A stretch of DNA of 21,522 bases from a virus, in the IMG/VR virus record IMGVR_UViG_3300031857_001612, positions 1 through 21,522 of that record; one strand, given 5' to 3'. Position 1 is the stretch's first letter; every line of letters begins with the position of its first letter. Positions 12,168-19,193 of the stretch are shown in pieces. Under the pieces are notes generated by a model. That model was not told where the DNA came from. It made no database searches and was given only the letters and a program-made list of their open reading frames with translations. The position numbers and the translations under genes were made by a program.

Positions 12168-12488
12168 CTATTTGGCCTTCAGGGCTTCCTGCCATGCCTC
12201 TATGACAAGGCGATGTTTGGTTTTGCAGTCACCAAACGCTTCGATAAGTCCCTTTTCCCACAGCGCACGCTCTGGGTCTAAAAGTGGCTTAGGCGGCTCA
12301 CTCAGGTTTTTGCACGGCGCTGACAGGTTTGCCGGAGGAGCCGGGAGTGTCTGTATCACGGATGCTTTCGACGAGCAGGCTGACAACGCCATCAGGAGGA
12401 GCAGGGCAATCAGCGGGAGGAGCCGGGATGTCTTTGTAAATTTCCCGTATAGTGTTGGTCCGCTCAACAGATGTAACTTCTGCTGCAT
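12168..12488 (-). CDS. Rz1-like outer-membrane lipoprotein (o-spanin)
   Basis: The product has a short basic N-terminus, a hydrophobic stretch RLLPLIALLLLMALSAC and a lipobox (LSAC). The lipidated Cys is residue 38 from ATG 12488. A Pro-rich segment follows (TLPAPPANLSAPCKNLSEPP), as in Rz1 proteins. ATG 12488 is chosen because GAGG lies nine bases upstream; ATGs at 12503 and 12524 are in frame and possible. The gene begins inside the Rz gene in another frame and runs 130 bases beyond it. With Rz it would span the periplasm and fuse the inner and outer membranes at lysis. At about 106 aa it is longer than lambda Rz1, with an added helical C-terminus. Confidence 0.82.
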   Translation of the reverse strand: MQQKLHLLSGPTLYGKFTKTSRLLPLIALLLLMALSACSSKASVIQTLPAPPANLSAPCKNLSEPPKPLLDPERALWEKGLIEAFGDCKTKHRLVIEAWQEALKAK

Positions 12489-12675
12489 TTCGCGCTTCCT
12501 CATATTGGACTGACTTGCCGTCAATCACCTTCTGCATGACGACACGTTGCTTCTCAGCCTTTTCCAACGCCTTTGCGTATGCCGCGTCACATTGCCAATC
12601 TTTGACTTTGTAACCGCCAATGAAGCCGACCAGAATAAGGCCGCCCATGACGTAAGGCGTTGGAATGCCGAGCAT
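12298..12675 (-). CDS. Rz-like inner-membrane spanin (i-spanin)
   Basis: The 125-residue protein begins with one N-terminal transmembrane helix (about residues 8-24, YVMGGLILVGFIGGYKV). A charged coiled-coil periplasmic part follows (AYAKALEKAEKQRVVMQKVI ... ARNAAEVTSVERTNTIREIY), and the tail is Pro-rich with one Cys (DIPAPPADCPAPPDG). This is the layout of Rz-type spanins. The start overlaps the endolysin stop (TAATG). The Rz1-like lipoprotein is encoded in an overlapping frame across its second half. Presence of spanins shows that the host is Gram-negative. Confidence 0.85.
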   Translation of the reverse strand: MLGIPTPYVMGGLILVGFIGGYKVKDWQCDAAYAKALEKAEKQRVVMQKVIDGKSVQYEEARNAAEVTSVERTNTIREIYKDIPAPPADCPAPPDGVVSLLVESIRDTDTPGSSGKPVSAVQKPE

Positions 12676-13286
12676 TATAGCCAGCCTGCGTATTTACGGG
12701 TCTTCATCTTGCGGTCATCCAAGCCATGCGTGCCACCATTAATGCGCTTTGTAAGGGCCAAAATGGCAGCATCGTTAATGCCTTGGTCGCAGATGCCCCA
12801 CAGCTTGTTTTTGTCAAAGAACCAAAGGGCGCTTTCAAAGCAAAGCTCACCAGCCACCAGATCAGGGTTATCCATCACATCAGGGCGGCCAATGTAGTTA
12901 GCAAACGCCTGATAGTTAGACTTGCCTGTCAGTTGGAGCGCGCCGCGTCCTCGAAACTTCCATCCGTCTCCGCTTCCCTCGTCCCCATTGCCCATGCGAT
13001 TTGCATAGACACGATTGGCAATCTTCTGCGGTTGACGTTCGTAGGCTTTAGCCAGAGCATCAGTCGGGAAATACTTGCCGAAAATACCCCGCAGACCTTT
13101 CGCACCATAGTTCAGGTTCTCCGAAAACGCCTTGAAGTTGCCGCTCTCATGTGCCGTCTGGGCAAAGAAGTGTGCAGCGCGGTTCTTGTTTAGCTTGTAG
13201 AAGGCCGCAGCAGCCTTGAGCGTGCCAGGGCCGAAAGCGCCATCAGCGGTTACGCCGATTTTCTGTTGAAGGTTTGCGAGGCTCAT
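12675..13286 (-). CDS. GH19-family endolysin
   Basis: The start is ATG 13286 (GGAG nine bases upstream; ATGA overlap with the preceding stop), not a TTG 18 bases earlier, giving 203 residues. The GH19 chitinase/lysozyme fold is clear: AHFFAQTAHESGNFKAFSEN with the general acid Glu47 and Glu56 as probable second carboxylate, then YANRMGNGDEGSGDGWKFRG and the hallmark FRGRGALQLTGKSNY (about 111-125). The C-terminus is INGGTHGLDDRK. Phage GH19 enzymes cut the glycan of peptidoglycan. There is no signal peptide or SAR anchor, so it needs a holin to reach the periplasm. Residues 1-30 resemble a short peptidoglycan-binding-type helix pair. Confidence 0.9.
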   Translation of the reverse strand: MSLANLQQKIGVTADGAFGPGTLKAAAAFYKLNKNRAAHFFAQTAHESGNFKAFSENLNYGAKGLRGIFGKYFPTDALAKAYERQPQKIANRVYANRMGNGDEGSGDGWKFRGRGALQLTGKSNYQAFANYIGRPDVMDNPDLVAGELCFESALWFFDKNKLWGICDQGINDAAILALTKRINGGTHGLDDRKMKTRKYAGWL

Positions 13287-13774
13287 CGTCCAGCACTCCG
13301 CCAATCAGGGAAGTCATTCTCGTCAACCACGCCATCGCCATTGGCATCATAACGCAAGTCGTTACGATACTTCTCCCACGGGGCCATATCGTCGTCGTCA
13401 TCGTCGTCAGCCAGGTCCAGCTCTTCTTGGACAGGTGCTGCCATAGGGGCTGGCGGAGGCGCTACAGGCTCAGGAGCGGGTTCAGGCTCCATAGGAGCAG
13501 GCTCAACAGGCTTTTCGTCACGAGCGTTAGCATTGAGGCTCAGACCGCCCAGCAGACCGACAAACGCACCAATGATGGTCTGGAAGGCCGGATTAATCAT
13601 ATCCAGCACAGCCGTGCTATCTACGATGTCATTCGGCATAAACAAGCCAACAACCAGCGCCAGCACGACAACCAGAATGACTGTCGAGAGCGTTACAACA
13701 GCAGTGCGGATCGTGAACTCAATCGTGTCCTCGATACCTTCCTGCTTACTTTCAAATTTATCCCAGAAACTCAT
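13283..13774 (-). CDS. Two-helix membrane protein with acidic tail and EF-hand (holin candidate)
   Basis: The 163-residue protein has two predicted membrane helices (about 21-45, RTAVVTLSTVILVVVLALVV, and about 62-80, AFQTIIGAFVGLLGGLSL). A Pro/Glu-rich linker (86-119), a run of seven Asp (123-129) and a C-terminal segment with the canonical EF-hand loop DANGDGVVDEND (143-154) follow. The loop has Asp/Asn at positions 1, 3, 5, 9 and 12. A holin-like role is suggested by two helices and a position directly before the endolysin gene. The acidic and EF-hand tail is not usual in holins and may bind Ca2+. The start has GGGAGG upstream and an ATGA overlap with the preceding gene. Confidence 0.75.
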   Translation of the reverse strand: MSFWDKFESKQEGIEDTIEFTIRTAVVTLSTVILVVVLALVVGLFMPNDIVDSTAVLDMINPAFQTIIGAFVGLLGGLSLNANARDEKPVEPAPMEPEPAPEPVAPPPAPMAAPVQEELDLADDDDDDDMAPWEKYRNDLRYDANGDGVVDENDFPDWRSAGR

Positions 13775-14289
13775 TCGTCCCTCCCAGCAAGCGGATTGGC
13801 AAGTGTGCGCTGTATCTTGGCATCTAATTCGCCTTGAATTTCCTTGATACGGCGCTGTTGCTCCAAGTCCTGTGCGCGAAGCTCATTGATAATCGCACGT
13901 TGGGATTGAAGCGTCTCCCTCTCCGATACTTGCGTCCTTGCAGTTACAGCGTCCACTGTCTGGCGGGCGCTCATTACGCTATTCCCAAGGCTCCCAGACA
14001 GCGCGGCGAGATTATCTGACAAATACTTCGTAGTTTCAAGGTTCATTCTAATCATGCGCTCATTGCTGTCCTGGCGCTCCTTCATTTTGTTGAAGTCATC
14101 GCCCATCGCAGCGTATGTCGCAGTCACTTCCTGCATCGTCAGGAACTGCTGATAAACCTGAAAACCAGCCCACAGGCCGCCAACAATCGTGGAGATTGCA
14201 GCGAAGATAATCGCAATCTTGCCGCTGCTTAGGCCGCCAACGTTAAAGCTGAAGCCGCTTTCGTCAAAAGAGATTTTATCGTCACTCAT
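13771..14289 (-). CDS. Membrane-anchored coiled-coil protein, 172 aa
   Basis: ATG 14289 is preferred (GGATGAG five bases upstream, start overlapping the upstream stop); ATGs at 14298 and 14325 are in frame. The product has a soluble N-terminus (1-22, with FDESGFSFNVGGLSSG), one membrane helix (about 24-46, IAIIFAAISTIVGGLWAGF) and a long helical region (50-165) with heptad-like spacing of hydrophobics and many Gln, Arg and Glu. No enzymatic motif is seen. It follows the secreted nidogen-like protein and precedes the holin candidate, each by short overlaps. A structural role in the envelope or in lysis timing is possible; I do not recognise a family. Confidence 0.72.
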   Translation of the reverse strand: MSDDKISFDESGFSFNVGGLSSGKIAIIFAAISTIVGGLWAGFQVYQQFLTMQEVTATYAAMGDDFNKMKERQDSNERMIRMNLETTKYLSDNLAALSGSLGNSVMSARQTVDAVTARTQVSERETLQSQRAIINELRAQDLEQQRRIKEIQGELDAKIQRTLANPLAGRDE

Positions 14290-15787
14290 ATTGCTCATCC
14301 ACCATCTGTTGCCAACGACCATCACTCCCCTGCATCATTCTGTATAATACCATATTTGCGTCAGGAATGCGACGGCCCTTGTAGATGTCCCTTGGCTGGT
14401 AGAATGGCTGATCCGGGATGCGAGCCTGCGTGTAGGCGGAATAACCAGCCGGAATGGCCGCAAGCTGCACCATTGCCTCATTGTCGCCATTATTCACATC
14501 CCCTACATCAATGTTCTGGCCAGCAGCCATCTCACCCTGCATACCCATATTCAGGACTTCCAACTGCTGCGCTTGCCCAACAGGCGTGTAGGTGTCGCCA
14601 ATCGTTGTAGTGGTAACACCTACAAACGTGGGGCCTTCAGTGGGCTGTAAACTATAAGTTACACCATCCGTCTCAGTTGACTTCTGCTCACCATATTGCT
14701 GCTCGTATTGAGCGTCTGCCAGCGCCAGAAATGCCACGTTCTGCGTAGAGGCTTGAATAACAGTCTCTCGTGCGAATAAGTCCGCCTCTTCAACTGCCTC
14801 ACTTTGGAAAAACTCCACATTGCGTTCACGGCGTGTTCCAGACACCATAGTGGTGCTTTGCTGCTGCTCAGAACTGCCTTGTGGGGCTGAACCTGGCGGT
14901 GGTGGCGGCTGTGATGCTGGAGATGCCTCTGCGGCGCTCTCAGAAGCCTCCTCAGCCTCTGTAGCCTCTTCTGGCTCCTCTTGGGCCGTTTCTGCTTGCG
15001 GCTCATCTACAGCGGTTTCTGTAGGGGTTTCCTCCACAACGTCCTGCATGGCGACAATTGCATCCTCAACGGCTGCTTCTGCTGCCTCTATCTGCTCTTC
15101 CTGCTGCTCAATGACGACAACAGGTATCGCTGTAGCGGAATACACCACAACGGGAGCCACCTCGATGGGCGGAGGAGGCGGTTCAGGCTGTGGAGGCGCT
15201 CCAAGTGCCACATATGACGTATTGTCGAGTAGATTGACGTTCTGGCCGTAAAAAATACTGATACTGTCAGCCATTGTCGGGCCAGTTAGGCCAGCCGTGA
15301 CAGTATGCCAGACATTATTTACGTCTCCATAGTTCCATTGCACCTTGCCATCAGGGAACAATGCAATCTCGAACGTGTTAGATAGGTTAGAGCCGTATTC
15401 CTGCGTATTATACCAACCAAATAGGGCTATATTAGCGTCAGTTCGGTAATATGGGTTCCCGCCACTGATTAAATCCATCCAGAGGCCATAAATCGAGTTG
15501 CGTGGCGCGCTATCAATGGGCCATCCATCGCAGCAAAGATGCCCAATGTTGTTAAACGAGATGAACCCGTTCGATGACACCCATGCCTGCGTGTAGGTTT
15601 GGCCGTAATACTCGAACGGAAAGCCCAGTTGAACCAGTCGCGTGCTGTCATCGCCACCATTTAGGGGCGTGGATGTCTGTGGAGTGCCGATAATCTGTGG
15701 CGGGATTGGGGCTGGGGTGTAGTCCTGTGCCGCAATCGGTGCAGAGATTAGCGCCGCGAGGAACGCTTGGGCTTGTTTTCTTCCCAT
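14282..15787 (-). CDS. Secreted nidogen-like domain protein, 501 aa
   Basis: ATG 15787 (AGGAGG about ten bases upstream) is chosen because the product then begins with a Sec signal: MGRKQAQAFLAALISAPIAA followed by QDY, with cleavage likely after Ala20. Residues about 50-197 resemble a nidogen-like beta domain: LGFPFEYYGQTYTQAWVSSN, GFISFNN, IYGLWMDLISGG and NTFEIALFPDGKVQWNYGD, with a CC pair at 85-86. A Pro-rich hinge (199-208), an extremely acidic Glu/Ala stretch (227-290), a second Pro hinge, and a beta/helical C-terminus ending VLYRMMQGSDGRWQQMVDEQY follow. Export to the periplasm or surface is expected. The role is unknown; adhesion or envelope modification is inference. Confidence 0.78.
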   Translation of the reverse strand: MGRKQAQAFLAALISAPIAAQDYTPAPIPPQIIGTPQTSTPLNGGDDSTRLVQLGFPFEYYGQTYTQAWVSSNGFISFNNIGHLCCDGWPIDSAPRNSIYGLWMDLISGGNPYYRTDANIALFGWYNTQEYGSNLSNTFEIALFPDGKVQWNYGDVNNVWHTVTAGLTGPTMADSISIFYGQNVNLLDNTSYVALGAPPQPEPPPPPIEVAPVVVYSATAIPVVVIEQQEEQIEAAEAAVEDAIVAMQDVVEETPTETAVDEPQAETAQEEPEEATEAEEASESAAEASPASQPPPPPGSAPQGSSEQQQSTTMVSGTRRERNVEFFQSEAVEEADLFARETVIQASTQNVAFLALADAQYEQQYGEQKSTETDGVTYSLQPTEGPTFVGVTTTTIGDTYTPVGQAQQLEVLNMGMQGEMAAGQNIDVGDVNNGDNEAMVQLAAIPAGYSAYTQARIPDQPFYQPRDIYKGRRIPDANMVLYRMMQGSDGRWQQMVDEQYE

Positions 15788-16611
15788 GCCGCTGCGGCCT
15801 CCTTGCCTATCTTGCCCTGATACGGACAAGGTGTGCCAGCCATCTTCATAGCGTCGAATACACGCTCGTCCTGACAGAGAAGCGATACAGCAGCCACGCG
15901 CATCCCCATGTCGTAGAGCGTCTTGGAGAGCTTTAGAGCCTCGCAGTTCTTGTCGCGGATGGTCTTACCGCCAGAGATGCCCAAGATTTGCGTCTGGACA
16001 GCCCCAGAAACGCCTGTGGTGCAAAGGTCTTGGCTGTAGCTCATCATGCTCGGTGCGATGGCTGACGGAGGCGGAGACGTAATCTTCTGCGTCACGCTCT
16101 GGTTTGCGTTGCTCTCGCTGTAGCTGGTGGATTTGCTGTCGGACACGTTGGTGTTCGTGTTGAGGTTCTTGCTCTCAGACACGGACGTATTCGTGTTCAC
16201 ATTTGTGCTAACCGAGCGGCTGTCCGAGATGTTGGTGTTGACGTTTGTATTCACGCTCTCAGATGTGCTGGTCGAGAGGTTCGTGTTTACGTTGGTCGCC
16301 GTTGATACGCTTGTCGAACTGCTCTCGTTAAAGTTGCGGTTCGTGTTCGTCGCGGTTGACGAGCTTTCGTTGAAGTTCCGATTGGTGTTCAGATTGGTGC
16401 TGTTTACAGTGCTGTTAGATGTGCTGTTAACAGTCTGGTTAATCGTGCTGGTCGAAACGTCCGTGTTGAAGTTGTTGTTCGTCGCCGTGCTGGTAGACGT
16501 ATTGACGTTGGTGTTCGTGTTCGTTGAGTTGGTTGTCGTGTCGTAGACGTAGTTATTCGACTGCGCAAAAGCCGCCACAGGAACAAAAGCAAGCAGCAGC
16601 AGTTTACGCAT
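15748..16611 (-). CDS. Secreted Asn/Thr/Ser-repeat protein with Cys-containing C-terminus
   Basis: From ATG 16611 (TGATG overlap with the upstream stop) the 287-residue product has a Sec signal peptide (MRKLLLLAFVPVAAFA, cleavage near Ala16). Residues 25-172 form an almost pure Asn/Thr/Ser/Val low-complexity region (patterns NTNVNTSTST, NTNRNFNESSST at 75-86 and again at 89-100). A compact C-terminal domain has four Cys (197, 223, 246, 262) with ILGISGGKTIRDKNC, LYDMGMRVAAVSLLC and AGTPCPYQGKIG. Four cysteines suit oxidative folding outside the cytoplasm. I recall a similar C-terminal domain in environmental phages but no function. The repeat could be a beta-solenoid or a flexible stalk (inference). 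Confidence 0.78.
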   Translation of the reverse strand: MRKLLLLAFVPVAAFAQSNNYVYDTTTNSTNTNTNVNTSTSTATNNNFNTDVSTSTINQTVNSTSNSTVNSTNLNTNRNFNESSSTATNTNRNFNESSSTSVSTATNVNTNLSTSTSESVNTNVNTNISDSRSVSTNVNTNTSVSESKNLNTNTNVSDSKSTSYSESNANQSVTQKITSPPPSAIAPSMMSYSQDLCTTGVSGAVQTQILGISGGKTIRDKNCEALKLSKTLYDMGMRVAAVSLLCQDERVFDAMKMAGTPCPYQGKIGKEAAAAWEENKPKRSSRR

Positions 16612-16817
16612 CAACGATCCGCCTTGTTATCCAACTTGTCCTCAATCCGACGAAGGTGCATCATCACCTCGTCAAACTTCTTGTCAATCGCCGCAAACTT
16701 ATCATCACCATAAGACAGCTTCGTCTCAATGATGGCGATGTTCTTGTTTAACTGAACCCATACGCCGATAACGCTTCCGAGCAGGGCCAGTGCGGTAACG
16801 ATGAGTTCAGGTGTCAT
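16611..16817 (-). CDS. Small membrane protein with coiled-coil tail, 68 aa
   Basis: ATG 16817 overlaps the preceding stop (TGATG), which supports it over an ATG four codons upstream. The 68 residues comprise a membrane helix (about 5-22, LIVTALALLGSVIGVWVQL) and a charged helix (27-66) with heptad spacing (IETKLSYGDDKFAAIDKKFD, VMMHLRRIEDKLD). It resembles small phage membrane/coiled-coil proteins, some of them in lysis cassettes, in the reverse order of XhlA (helix first, coil second). A lysis or envelope role is inferred from the following secreted-protein genes. Confidence 0.68.
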   Translation of the reverse strand: MTPELIVTALALLGSVIGVWVQLNKNIAIIETKLSYGDDKFAAIDKKFDEVMMHLRRIEDKLDNKADR

Positions 16818-17272
16818 CAGGCAACCCATTCTTCAGCGGGGGCTTCCGGCCATGCGGGATCAAGCATATCCAAGTCACGTAAGGCTTGGCGGTATGCAGC
16901 GAAGGCGGTCTTGCAGTCAGCCGTCAGAGGAACGTCTGCAAGCTGCGTCCAGTCCGTGTTGTCCAGCTTGGTGTTACGAAGAGCCTTGTTTGCTACAATT
17001 GTAGCAGCGTCAACAGCGGCCTTAGCTTCGTCGTCCATGTCAGCAACGGAATACTTGGTATACCACTTGCCTTCGATCTGTTCGACACCATCGCGGTAGA
17101 CAACCTGATACTTTGTGGCTGTCGGCTGCGGGCCTTCAAACACAACGTCTGCGCCCAAGTCGTTAACCAGTTCTTCGGTTAAGACATAGGGGAAGGATGT
17201 GTTCGGGTGCATGGCGCGCAATTCGCTTTCAGTTACGACTGCGCCTGTTTCTTGAATTCGATACTCTGCCAT
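16817..17272 (-). CDS. Tail-assembly-chaperone-like protein (Phage_tail_APC type)
   Basis: The 151-residue protein has an N-terminal beta part (YRIQETGAVVTESELRAMHP ... KYQVVYRDGVEQIEGKWYTK), then a helical section and a C-terminal segment RNTKLDNTDWTQLADVPLTA...FAAYRQALRDLDMLDPAWPEA. The sequence 'R(x)xLLxxTDWTxLxDVPL...YRQALRDL...WPxxP' is typical of phage tail-fibre assembly/chaperone proteins (Phage_tail_APC/DUF4376-like). It lies immediately downstream of the large repeat fibre gene, as such chaperones usually do. AGGAAA lies upstream of ATG 17272. Assistance in folding or attachment of that fibre is the likely role. Confidence 0.82.
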   Translation of the reverse strand: MAEYRIQETGAVVTESELRAMHPNTSFPYVLTEELVNDLGADVVFEGPQPTATKYQVVYRDGVEQIEGKWYTKYSVADMDDEAKAAVDAATIVANKALRNTKLDNTDWTQLADVPLTADCKTAFAAYRQALRDLDMLDPAWPEAPAEEWVA

Positions 17273-17291: not shown

Positions 17292-19193
17292 CTAGGCCAC
17301 GGCCATATAAATATATGTGGCGGCGTTAACGTTGACGTTGGTTGCAGCCACTTGATTTACCACAAACCCGCTGCTGTCAGTATCAATCGTGTCGTCGGTT
17401 GTAACTTCGGCTGCCGTTGTGTTCAGCGATAGGTGCGGGTCATTGCCAGAAACAATGCCACGGGCCGTATCCCAGACATACCAATCGCCCGTGCTGTCAG
17501 TCCGCTTAATCATCACGAACCGCGCACCAGCAGCAAAGCCACAGTTAATCGTCTGGCTGCTTCCGTTGCCGGTGTAAGTTCCCACCTTGCTCACGCCAGC
17601 GCATGAGGCAAAAAGGTAGGCGACAAATGTTCCACCAGAGGCGTTTTGCGAAGAACCTTGCACTGAAAACGTAGTAGATGTCGGGACGGCACCCCAGTTT
17701 GAGTTATTGTCAAAACCAAGATCACCGCGATTTAGGTAGCCGGTATTTAGACCTTGCGACGCAGCGTATACTGTCCACGGGCTAGAAGTATTTCGCTGCT
17801 TTACAATCATCAACTCAGGCGTAACACCAAGGTTGTGATTTAAAGTTTGCGGGGACGCACCATTGCCTGTGTAACAAACCTCATCAAAGAAGCCGGGCGC
17901 GCGGCGGAAGCACCAATCTATATATGTTGTATTTGTTCCATTCGTGTCGCTAAAGTTACCAGCGGTAAAGCCTGTATTGCTTGCGAAACTAGTTATGTGA
18001 TTAGTCGAAAACTCACTTCCCGTGCTGCTAACATTCAATGTATTTGTAGAACCCCGCAACCTATCAGTCTCATACGGAGAGTTTGCTGCGTAGTCGCCTG
18101 AACGACCTTTGGAAATTACAAAATCCGTAACAAACCCAGTGCTGATTGTTGCATTAGCCCCCGTTCCCGTCCGTGCCACTGGAGCAAACACACTCGTCCC
18201 GCTCGTCGGTGTCCGCATAGGGCCGCGACGAATGGCGATGTAGATGTAGGTGCTTCCATTGGCGTTGACTTGCGGGTCGCTGGTTGCCATGATTTGGAAG
18301 CCGGTAGCCGTCGGGCTTACATACTCCACAGAACTTTCCGCAGCGCTTGTGTTTGCCGCTAAAATAGCGTCAGAACTTCCAACCGGAAGTCCGCGCATAT
18401 TGTCAAATAAATTCCAGCTAGCGAGGCCGCTGGCGTTCTTGACCATTAACCACTGCGGCTCCCAGCCCAATGTTACGCTATTCCCAACCGCGCCAGTTCC
18501 AGTATAACTCCCACACTGAATAATCCCGTCAGACGTTGTGTCGTGGGCGAAGAGGTAGGCTACGTAGGTGCCGCCGGATGCGTTGACCGTTGCGTCCGTG
18601 CCGACAGTAAACTCAGTCGCAGTCGGTGTTGTGCTGTTCCAGCGGGTCGCGCCAGTGGCTACAGCAGCCGTTGCATTTAGCACCATATACTGCGTGTTGG
18701 CGTTACTGCGGTGATAGACCTGCCAATCGCCTGTCGTGTCGGTGCGCTTCACGAGAATGCAGCCGGGAGCCACACCAAGGCTATGCGCGATAGTGCGGTT
18801 AGCGCCTGTGCCCGTATACGTCACAACATCAAAGAACTTAGGTGCTTCGCGGAATGTCCATGAGGCGTAGTTTTGCCCGCTGCTATTACGCCAAATGCCT
18901 CCACTTAAAGAAAAGCCGTTTGAGTTAAACGACGTAATACTACCAGTATCATATCCATAGTTTGTGCTGGTAAATTGATCGTTCCCCGCTCCGCGTAGCG
19001 TATCTGCAATACAGTTTCCCTCGCTGTATACCTGAGTTCTAGCTTTAGACCAAACCATTCCGCCCTTGCCGGAAAGGTCGATGCCGTTGGTAATTGTCTG
19101 TGCGCTTCCCGTTCCCGTGTAGAGCCACGTCGAGAATACGTCCTCAACGAAGAGTTTGTCGTCTGATACCTGTGATGAATTAGCGGAGAACAT
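17292..19193 (-). CDS. Tail fibre / appendage protein with six DUF7483-like repeats
   Basis: The 633-residue protein is built of six units of about 100 residues that each begin with a Y-T-G-[TN]-G element (Tyr25, Tyr126, Tyr230, Arg341, Tyr441, Tyr540). Many units then read 'xxAHSLGVAPGCILVKRTDT(T)GDW' and end 'NASGxTYVAYLFA' or 'YIYMAVA'. This is the recognised DUF7483-like repeat of phage tail appendages. There is no signal peptide and few Cys. Position just upstream of the tail-chaperone-like gene supports a receptor-binding fibre or appendage. The fourth unit is the most divergent. Repeat number may vary between relatives (inference). Confidence 0.85.
   Translation of the reverse strand: MFSANSSQVSDDKLFVEDVFSTWLYTGTGSAQTITNGIDLSGKGGMVWSKARTQVYSEGNCIADTLRGAGNDQFTSTNYGYDTGSITSFNSNGFSLSGGIWRNSSGQNYASWTFREAPKFFDVVTYTGTGANRTIAHSLGVAPGCILVKRTDTTGDWQVYHRSNANTQYMVLNATAAVATGATRWNSTTPTATEFTVGTDATVNASGGTYVAYLFAHDTTSDGIIQCGSYTGTGAVGNSVTLGWEPQWLMVKNASGLASWNLFDNMRGLPVGSSDAILAANTSAAESSVEYVSPTATGFQIMATSDPQVNANGSTYIYIAIRRGPMRTPTSGTSVFAPVARTGTGANATISTGFVTDFVISKGRSGDYAANSPYETDRLRGSTNTLNVSSTGSEFSTNHITSFASNTGFTAGNFSDTNGTNTTYIDWCFRRAPGFFDEVCYTGNGASPQTLNHNLGVTPELMIVKQRNTSSPWTVYAASQGLNTGYLNRGDLGFDNNSNWGAVPTSTTFSVQGSSQNASGGTFVAYLFASCAGVSKVGTYTGNGSSQTINCGFAAGARFVMIKRTDSTGDWYVWDTARGIVSGNDPHLSLNTTAAEVTTDDTIDTDSSGFVVNQVAATNVNVNAATYIYMAVA

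Follow-up and report, generated by a model that had tools for sequence, protein, structure and literature searches.

A co-inherited three-gene block for predicted exported and membrane proteins in the late region of aquatic phages

Five overlapping genes between tail fibre and endolysin

Why should a phage carry a run of exported and membrane proteins between its tail fibre and endolysin genes, and do these proteins act together? The question was raised by the window analysed here, the whole of a 21.5-kb IMG/VR virus record (21,522 nt) whose late genes lie on the minus strand. An earlier note on this DNA had described five consecutive, overlapping genes for such proteins at 13283-16817 and proposed that they work jointly at the host envelope. 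We confirmed the five ORFs, all of them on the minus strand. Their maximum 17-residue Kyte-Doolittle means were 2.44 for P1, 1.78 for A, 2.22 for B, 2.19 for C and 3.11 for D; a mean of at least 1.6 was reached by 18.5% of 313 background ORFs, which gives a probability of about 2e-4 for five in a row under independence.

The late genes ran, all on the minus strand, from the structural genes to a DUF7483 tail fibre or virion protein (17292..19193; PF24299, 5e-101), a tail fibre assembly chaperone (16817..17272; PF16778, 3.8e-10), P1, A, B, C and D. They were followed by a GH19 endolysin (12675..13286; PF00182, 1.8e-9; phrog_181, 1.5e-61) and an Rz-like inner-membrane spanin (12298..12675), assigned by phrog_1152 (E 0.0014), position and topology. 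An Rz1-like lipoprotein spanin (12168..12524; phrog_456, 3e-7; Pfam LysC, 0.004) overlapped the Rz-like gene in another frame. Next in order after the spanins came genes for a small membrane protein and a 'stabilization' protein, with a phosphoesterase-like gene between them. From the chaperone through Rz, each start codon overlapped the preceding stop (TGATG, ATGA or longer; read from the sequence), and the tight coupling described earlier was thus borne out from P1 to Rz. With the best starts for P1 to D read off the sequence, the ATG of A overlapped the P1 stop, B started 40 nt inside A, B and C overlapped by 8 nt, and both the C/D and the D/endolysin overlaps were ATGA.

An EF-hand loop, DANGDGVVDEND, is visible in the last of the five, D (13283..13774), along with two TM helices and a Pro/acidic linker, in agreement with its earlier description as a two-helix EF-hand protein. 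D is best read as the likely holin of an ordinary lysis cassette because of its topology and position, since it has at least two TM helices and its gene directly precedes the endolysin; in the relative L201, a PHROG-recognised holin occupies its place. MW202879, from Manatee Spring, shared synteny with the window at g1 and g3 and lacked A-B-C; its order was fibre, chaperone-like, P1-like, one more small membrane protein, recognised holin and M15 endolysin. This layout suggests that A-B-C is an accessory block set between the fibre and lysis genes and that D sits in the holin slot. No holin-family profile matched D at E<=0.1, the only match being phrog_30794 (unknown function, 0.049), and the match to the holin family phrog_785 was not significant (0.29); this is weak evidence against a holin because profiles miss many of them.

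EF-hand loops numbered one in the window D and two in the relatives L005 and L022, and one downstream gene among the relatives matched Pfam EF-hand at 2.8e-4. In CRP-207, gp72 showed an N-terminal EF-hand followed by TM helices. It would be unusual for a holin to be controlled by calcium. A separate, unannotated conserved protein with about two TM helices (..WRIFPRAFLTVYIVLLY..GAGAAWFGLYAGT..) was found upstream of A in L032, L036, L037, L044, L048, L052, L068, L086 and L088, and resembles an undescribed holin family. The window endolysin was 72.5% identical to the vB_FspM_immuto endolysin of Flavobacterium phages, closer to a named phage than any other searched window gene, suggesting that it may have passed between phages of distant hosts.

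The conserved core and its distribution

The conserved core of the locus is three genes, A-B-C. When loci were anchored on A, B followed in 72 of 72 and C, with its NPL ending, in 71 of 72, these being the loci with room downstream, with named phages counted and near-identical records included. When a second scan started instead from the B tail, sharing some contigs with the first, A was found upstream in 60/60 and C downstream in 77/78. From either anchor the homologues kept together and were not scattered, scattering being the outcome that the earlier note had set against its own proposal. The conserved unit was A, B and C and not all five genes, so that the first interpretation was upheld in part. 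The five-gene unit was rejected as P1-like genes were found without A-B-C and D suits the holin slot. P1 (16611..16817), a 68-aa protein with an N-terminal TM segment, a coiled coil and weak PHROG matches only, probably lies outside the core, because P1-like genes occur without it; a similar small TM/coiled-coil gene stands in the same place (L201:7821-7991) in a syntenic relative lacking A-B-C.

The block was widespread in environmental sequence, with at least 598 IMG/VR stretches encoding A in a scan with the A domain. Among 50,697 named phage records, a tblastn search with A picked out only 11, all of them pelagiphages, roseophages or uncultured aquatic phages, and B-like and C-like genes followed A in these records except in L020, where C was not found. 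The isolated carriers were HTVC202P, HTVC115P, HTVC033P, HTVC023P, Baldr, Mosig, CRP-207 and CRP-810, which makes the role of A-B-C directly testable. HTVC027P, the subject of a pelagiphage transcriptome study (PMC12753301), was absent among the A matches. A genome scan yielded only 21 loci, which with few exceptions lay in metagenome-assembled genomes on contigs below 120 kb; a cellular origin was rejected, the loci being presumed to be mis-binned virus contigs.

The three proteins were found together in spite of considerable divergence. Pairwise distances averaged 0.5 in the A domain and about 0.72 in both B and C; across the 72 loci the distance matrices of the three covaried (Mantel r 0.38-0.68, p 0.001). 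Co-inheritance across such divergence is the strongest result of this analysis. A near-obligate cassette present in at least 598 environmental stretches, of which only A falls in any PHROG, points to a blind spot in abundant aquatic virus genomes.

Some neighbouring genes recurred around the block. A staphylococcal-nuclease homologue stood directly before A in L038, L043, L046, L049, L082, L095 and L097, such homologues making up 13 of 87 proteins upstream of A, and the one upstream of A in L033 carried a Sec-type signal peptide. A few genes downstream of the cassette, HTVC115P gp46 (L011:11243-11692) was annotated as a toxin-activating lysine-acyltransferase.

Domain layout of A, B and C

Protein A (15748..16611) consists of a signal peptide, an N/S/T-rich tract and a four-Cys domain. 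The Sec signal, MRKLLLLAFVPVAAFA followed by QS, has its predicted cleavage between AFA and QS, and a signal-peptide heuristic fitted A in 57/71 relatives, compared with 42/399 other ORFs. The tract spans about 147 residues (26% N, 24% T, 22% S), in which Thr or hydrophobic residues alternate with Asn/Ser at a two-residue period (autocorrelation at lags 1-4: -0.36, 0.34, -0.39 and 0.40). Significant alternation was detected in 63 of the 78 relatives with a tract of at least 40 residues, and several relatives lacked the tract altogether. Such a pattern may reflect the requirement of a beta strand with two unlike faces. The C-terminal domain of about 110 aa carried four cysteines (C39, C65, C88 and C104) that were invariant in 29 sequences. 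Some A relatives ended in a hydrophobic segment, which would tie them to the inner membrane near C. The structural model of A was helical and of low confidence (mean pLDDT 56), its fold search gave no convincing match (best E 4.1), and a PDB sequence search gave none. No Pfam family matched A, and its only PHROG match was phrog_20531 (E 2.5e-14), of unknown function.

Protein B (14282..15787) comprises a Sec signal (..LAALISAPIAA, then QD), a nidogen-like beta-sandwich head, a disordered, low-complexity, Pro/Glu-rich stalk and a conserved C-terminal tail of about 80 aa (FYQPRDIYK..IPDANMVLYRM...MVDEQYE). The heuristic fitted B in 65/72 relatives, against the same 42/399 other ORFs. The head was predicted with confidence as a beta-sandwich, with pLDDT above 90 across most of residues 25-195, and two among 31 B relatives matched Pfam NIDO (PF06119; best E 0.0019), in keeping with the nidogen-like label given earlier. 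The heads of B varied, CBM_4_9 being matched in 1/31 relatives (E<0.01). The window B itself gave no NIDO match and no significant Pfam or PHROG match of any kind. Searching the named-phage collection with B alone gave no match at 1e-5, which indicates that B diverges fast. PDB sequence matches were weak and mostly on the low-complexity stalk, a fold search with the full model gave no Foldseek match below E 0.44, and the best VIA match (Z 5.2 over 49 residues) fell under the informative level of the tool. Tandem 20-residue Cys repeats (C..D.LY...C.GYA.AYL.QQC) followed the head in many B relatives, among them L025, L032, L054, L059 and L066, and were absent from the window B.

Protein C (13771..14289) has a single N-terminal hydrophobic segment, predicted to span the membrane, and a long coiled coil, both recognised by inspection, and ends in NPLAG in the window. 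No Pfam or PHROG family was found for it; a match to the Rz-like phrog_739 was weak and not significant (E 0.31). Pelagiphage C proteins (L010, L016, L017 and L018) contained His-rich stretches such as SHSHDMPKHSHEVGEHQHDEHGH, which could bind metal. In the named phage records some A genes are annotated as 'OmpA family', some B genes as 'TonB' and some C genes as 'lysozyme', the others as hypothetical.

Possible roles at the host envelope and comparison with known systems

Starting from the observed gene order, co-occurrence, domain layout and selection, we infer location, complex formation and role as follows. A, B and C would be one co-inherited late module, with A and B exported by Sec into the periplasm, as the signal peptides and the four invariant cysteines suggest, and with C presumably anchored in the inner membrane, its coiled coil in the periplasm. 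Neither A nor B showed a lipobox, a beta-barrel terminus or adjacent secretion genes; with type-I signals, they should then remain periplasmic in a Gram-negative host, and the cysteines of A fit the periplasm and were counted for this location. The three proteins probably touch through the Cys domain of A and the conserved tails of B and C, and the stalk-borne head of B may bind a ligand. Together, the three would build a tethered structure across the periplasm that aids, localises or times envelope breakdown, added to holin, endolysin and Rz/Rz1. Our preferred reading, with a probability of roughly 0.4, is thus that A-B-C may be a late complex of the periplasm, anchored to the inner membrane, that aids or times lysis.

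This reading is favoured because the block often lies in or beside holin-endolysin-spanin genes and is exchanged together with D and the endolysin. In 27 of the 38 dereplicated loci that had 3 kb of sequence on either side, a homologue of a holin, an endolysin or a spanin lay within 3 kb on the same strand, holin-like genes being present in 22 and spanins in 9; the lysis seeds came partly from the same loci, so that these counts are descriptive and have no null model. L006 kept A-B-C-D-endolysin, with an endolysin 93.8% identical to that of the window, on a different backbone (g3, 24.6% identical), indicating that the block moved as a unit. Against a lysis aid, no recognised lysis gene was nearby in 11/38 loci, known lysis regulators are much smaller than the A-B-C proteins, and envelope disruption is already covered by Rz/Rz1 in the window and by the spanins near 9/38 loci. 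For the same window and nine loci we rejected the possibility that A-B-C replaces missing spanins.

Comparison with L002/L003 bears on a second role, in which an exported complex in the periplasm or inner membrane blocks the genome entry of a second phage. T4 Sp and P22 SieA block such entry by other means. DNA identity to the window was about 92-98% for the endolysin, C and Rz and 80-83% for A and B; a quarter of B and the whole DUF7483 fibre gene were unalignable. A and B are thus more diverged from the closest relatives than C, the endolysin and Rz, as if facing a changing partner, and a late, exported or membrane-bound, accessory block absent from a syntenic relative would also suit superinfection exclusion. 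However, all genes with computable dN/dS were under purifying selection (A 0.13-0.15, B 0.16), and the divergence of B fell mostly in the stalk, whose protein sequence is under the weakest constraint (dN about 0.4), whereas head and tail had dN/dS near 0.1. The nidogen-like head is therefore not hypervariable, and its positive diversification was unsupported. Known exclusion proteins, moreover, are usually single, small and often early, and we consider this role unlikely.

More improbable still is an adhesive or fibrous surface product, with the A tract forming beta fibres and B acting as an adhesin that gathers infected cells or debris into aggregates, to an end comparable with the sibling capture proposed for pelagiphage curli (PMC7029224, PMC9599517). 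The two-residue alternation of most A tracts and the variable heads of B (NIDO in two relatives, CBM_4_9 in one) would agree with it. Against it, the tract is missing from several A proteins, so that what is conserved is something other than fibre formation, the block has no outer-membrane exporter beside it, and CsgG (PF03783) was found in 0/36 A-B-C records, several of which are fragments, with 4 control genomes positive. For surface decoration, as suggested in the earlier note, a further step not seen here would be required, since A and B are predicted to stop in the periplasm. Finally, packaged or particle-attached parts such as ejection proteins are very unlikely, since the cleavable-type signals of A and B and the TM segment of C would remove them from the cytoplasm, the site of tailed-particle assembly, and since the block, although directly after the tail-fibre and chaperone genes in the window and several relatives, varies in position relative to fibre genes, standing before the terminase in HTVC202P and Baldr.

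Returning to a complex that aids or times lysis, there is a likeness to Rz/Rz1: C, with its N-terminal TM segment, would have the layout of an i-spanin if its coiled coil lies in the periplasm as predicted, the lysis neighbourhood is shared, and bridging of the periplasm is proposed for A-B-C too. The block differs in having two large type-I exported proteins in place of a lipoprotein partner. We rejected canonical spanins because A and B carry no lipobox Cys and the window lipoprotein belongs to the separate Rz/Rz1 pair. Pelagiphage curli (type VIII secretion) likewise come as a cassette of several genes for exported products, carried by marine phages that differ in morphology (PMC9599517, PMC7029224). 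Their gene content and order are different, A gave no Pfam match and has a different, N/S/T alternating tract, and the CsgG search of 36 records led us to reject this system. T4 antiholin RI, a phage protein with a cleavable signal peptide, influences the timing of lysis from the periplasm (PMC8385771). The likeness is an analogy only: RI is one small protein, and A-B-C consists of three that, in most relatives, add up to roughly 750 to 1600 aa. Among protein families, phrog_20531 covers A and neither B nor C.

As the earlier note had held, large exported proteins of this kind lie outside known lysis systems, none of those described being found to contain them. We found no description of the A-B-C cassette in the open-licence literature, in which pelagiphage curli and HMO-2011-type genomes are treated and the block is not (PMC9599517, PMC7029224, PMC9038755). 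A-B-C might even be a new trans-periplasmic machine of many phages that infect aquatic Gram-negative bacteria, unrelated to spanins, curli and known exclusion proteins, that controls envelope opening or binding at the end of infection, a tentative idea that we hold somewhat doubtful. The newness of A-B-C concerns its gene content and architecture, and in mechanism it could still prove to be a form of exclusion or lysis control.
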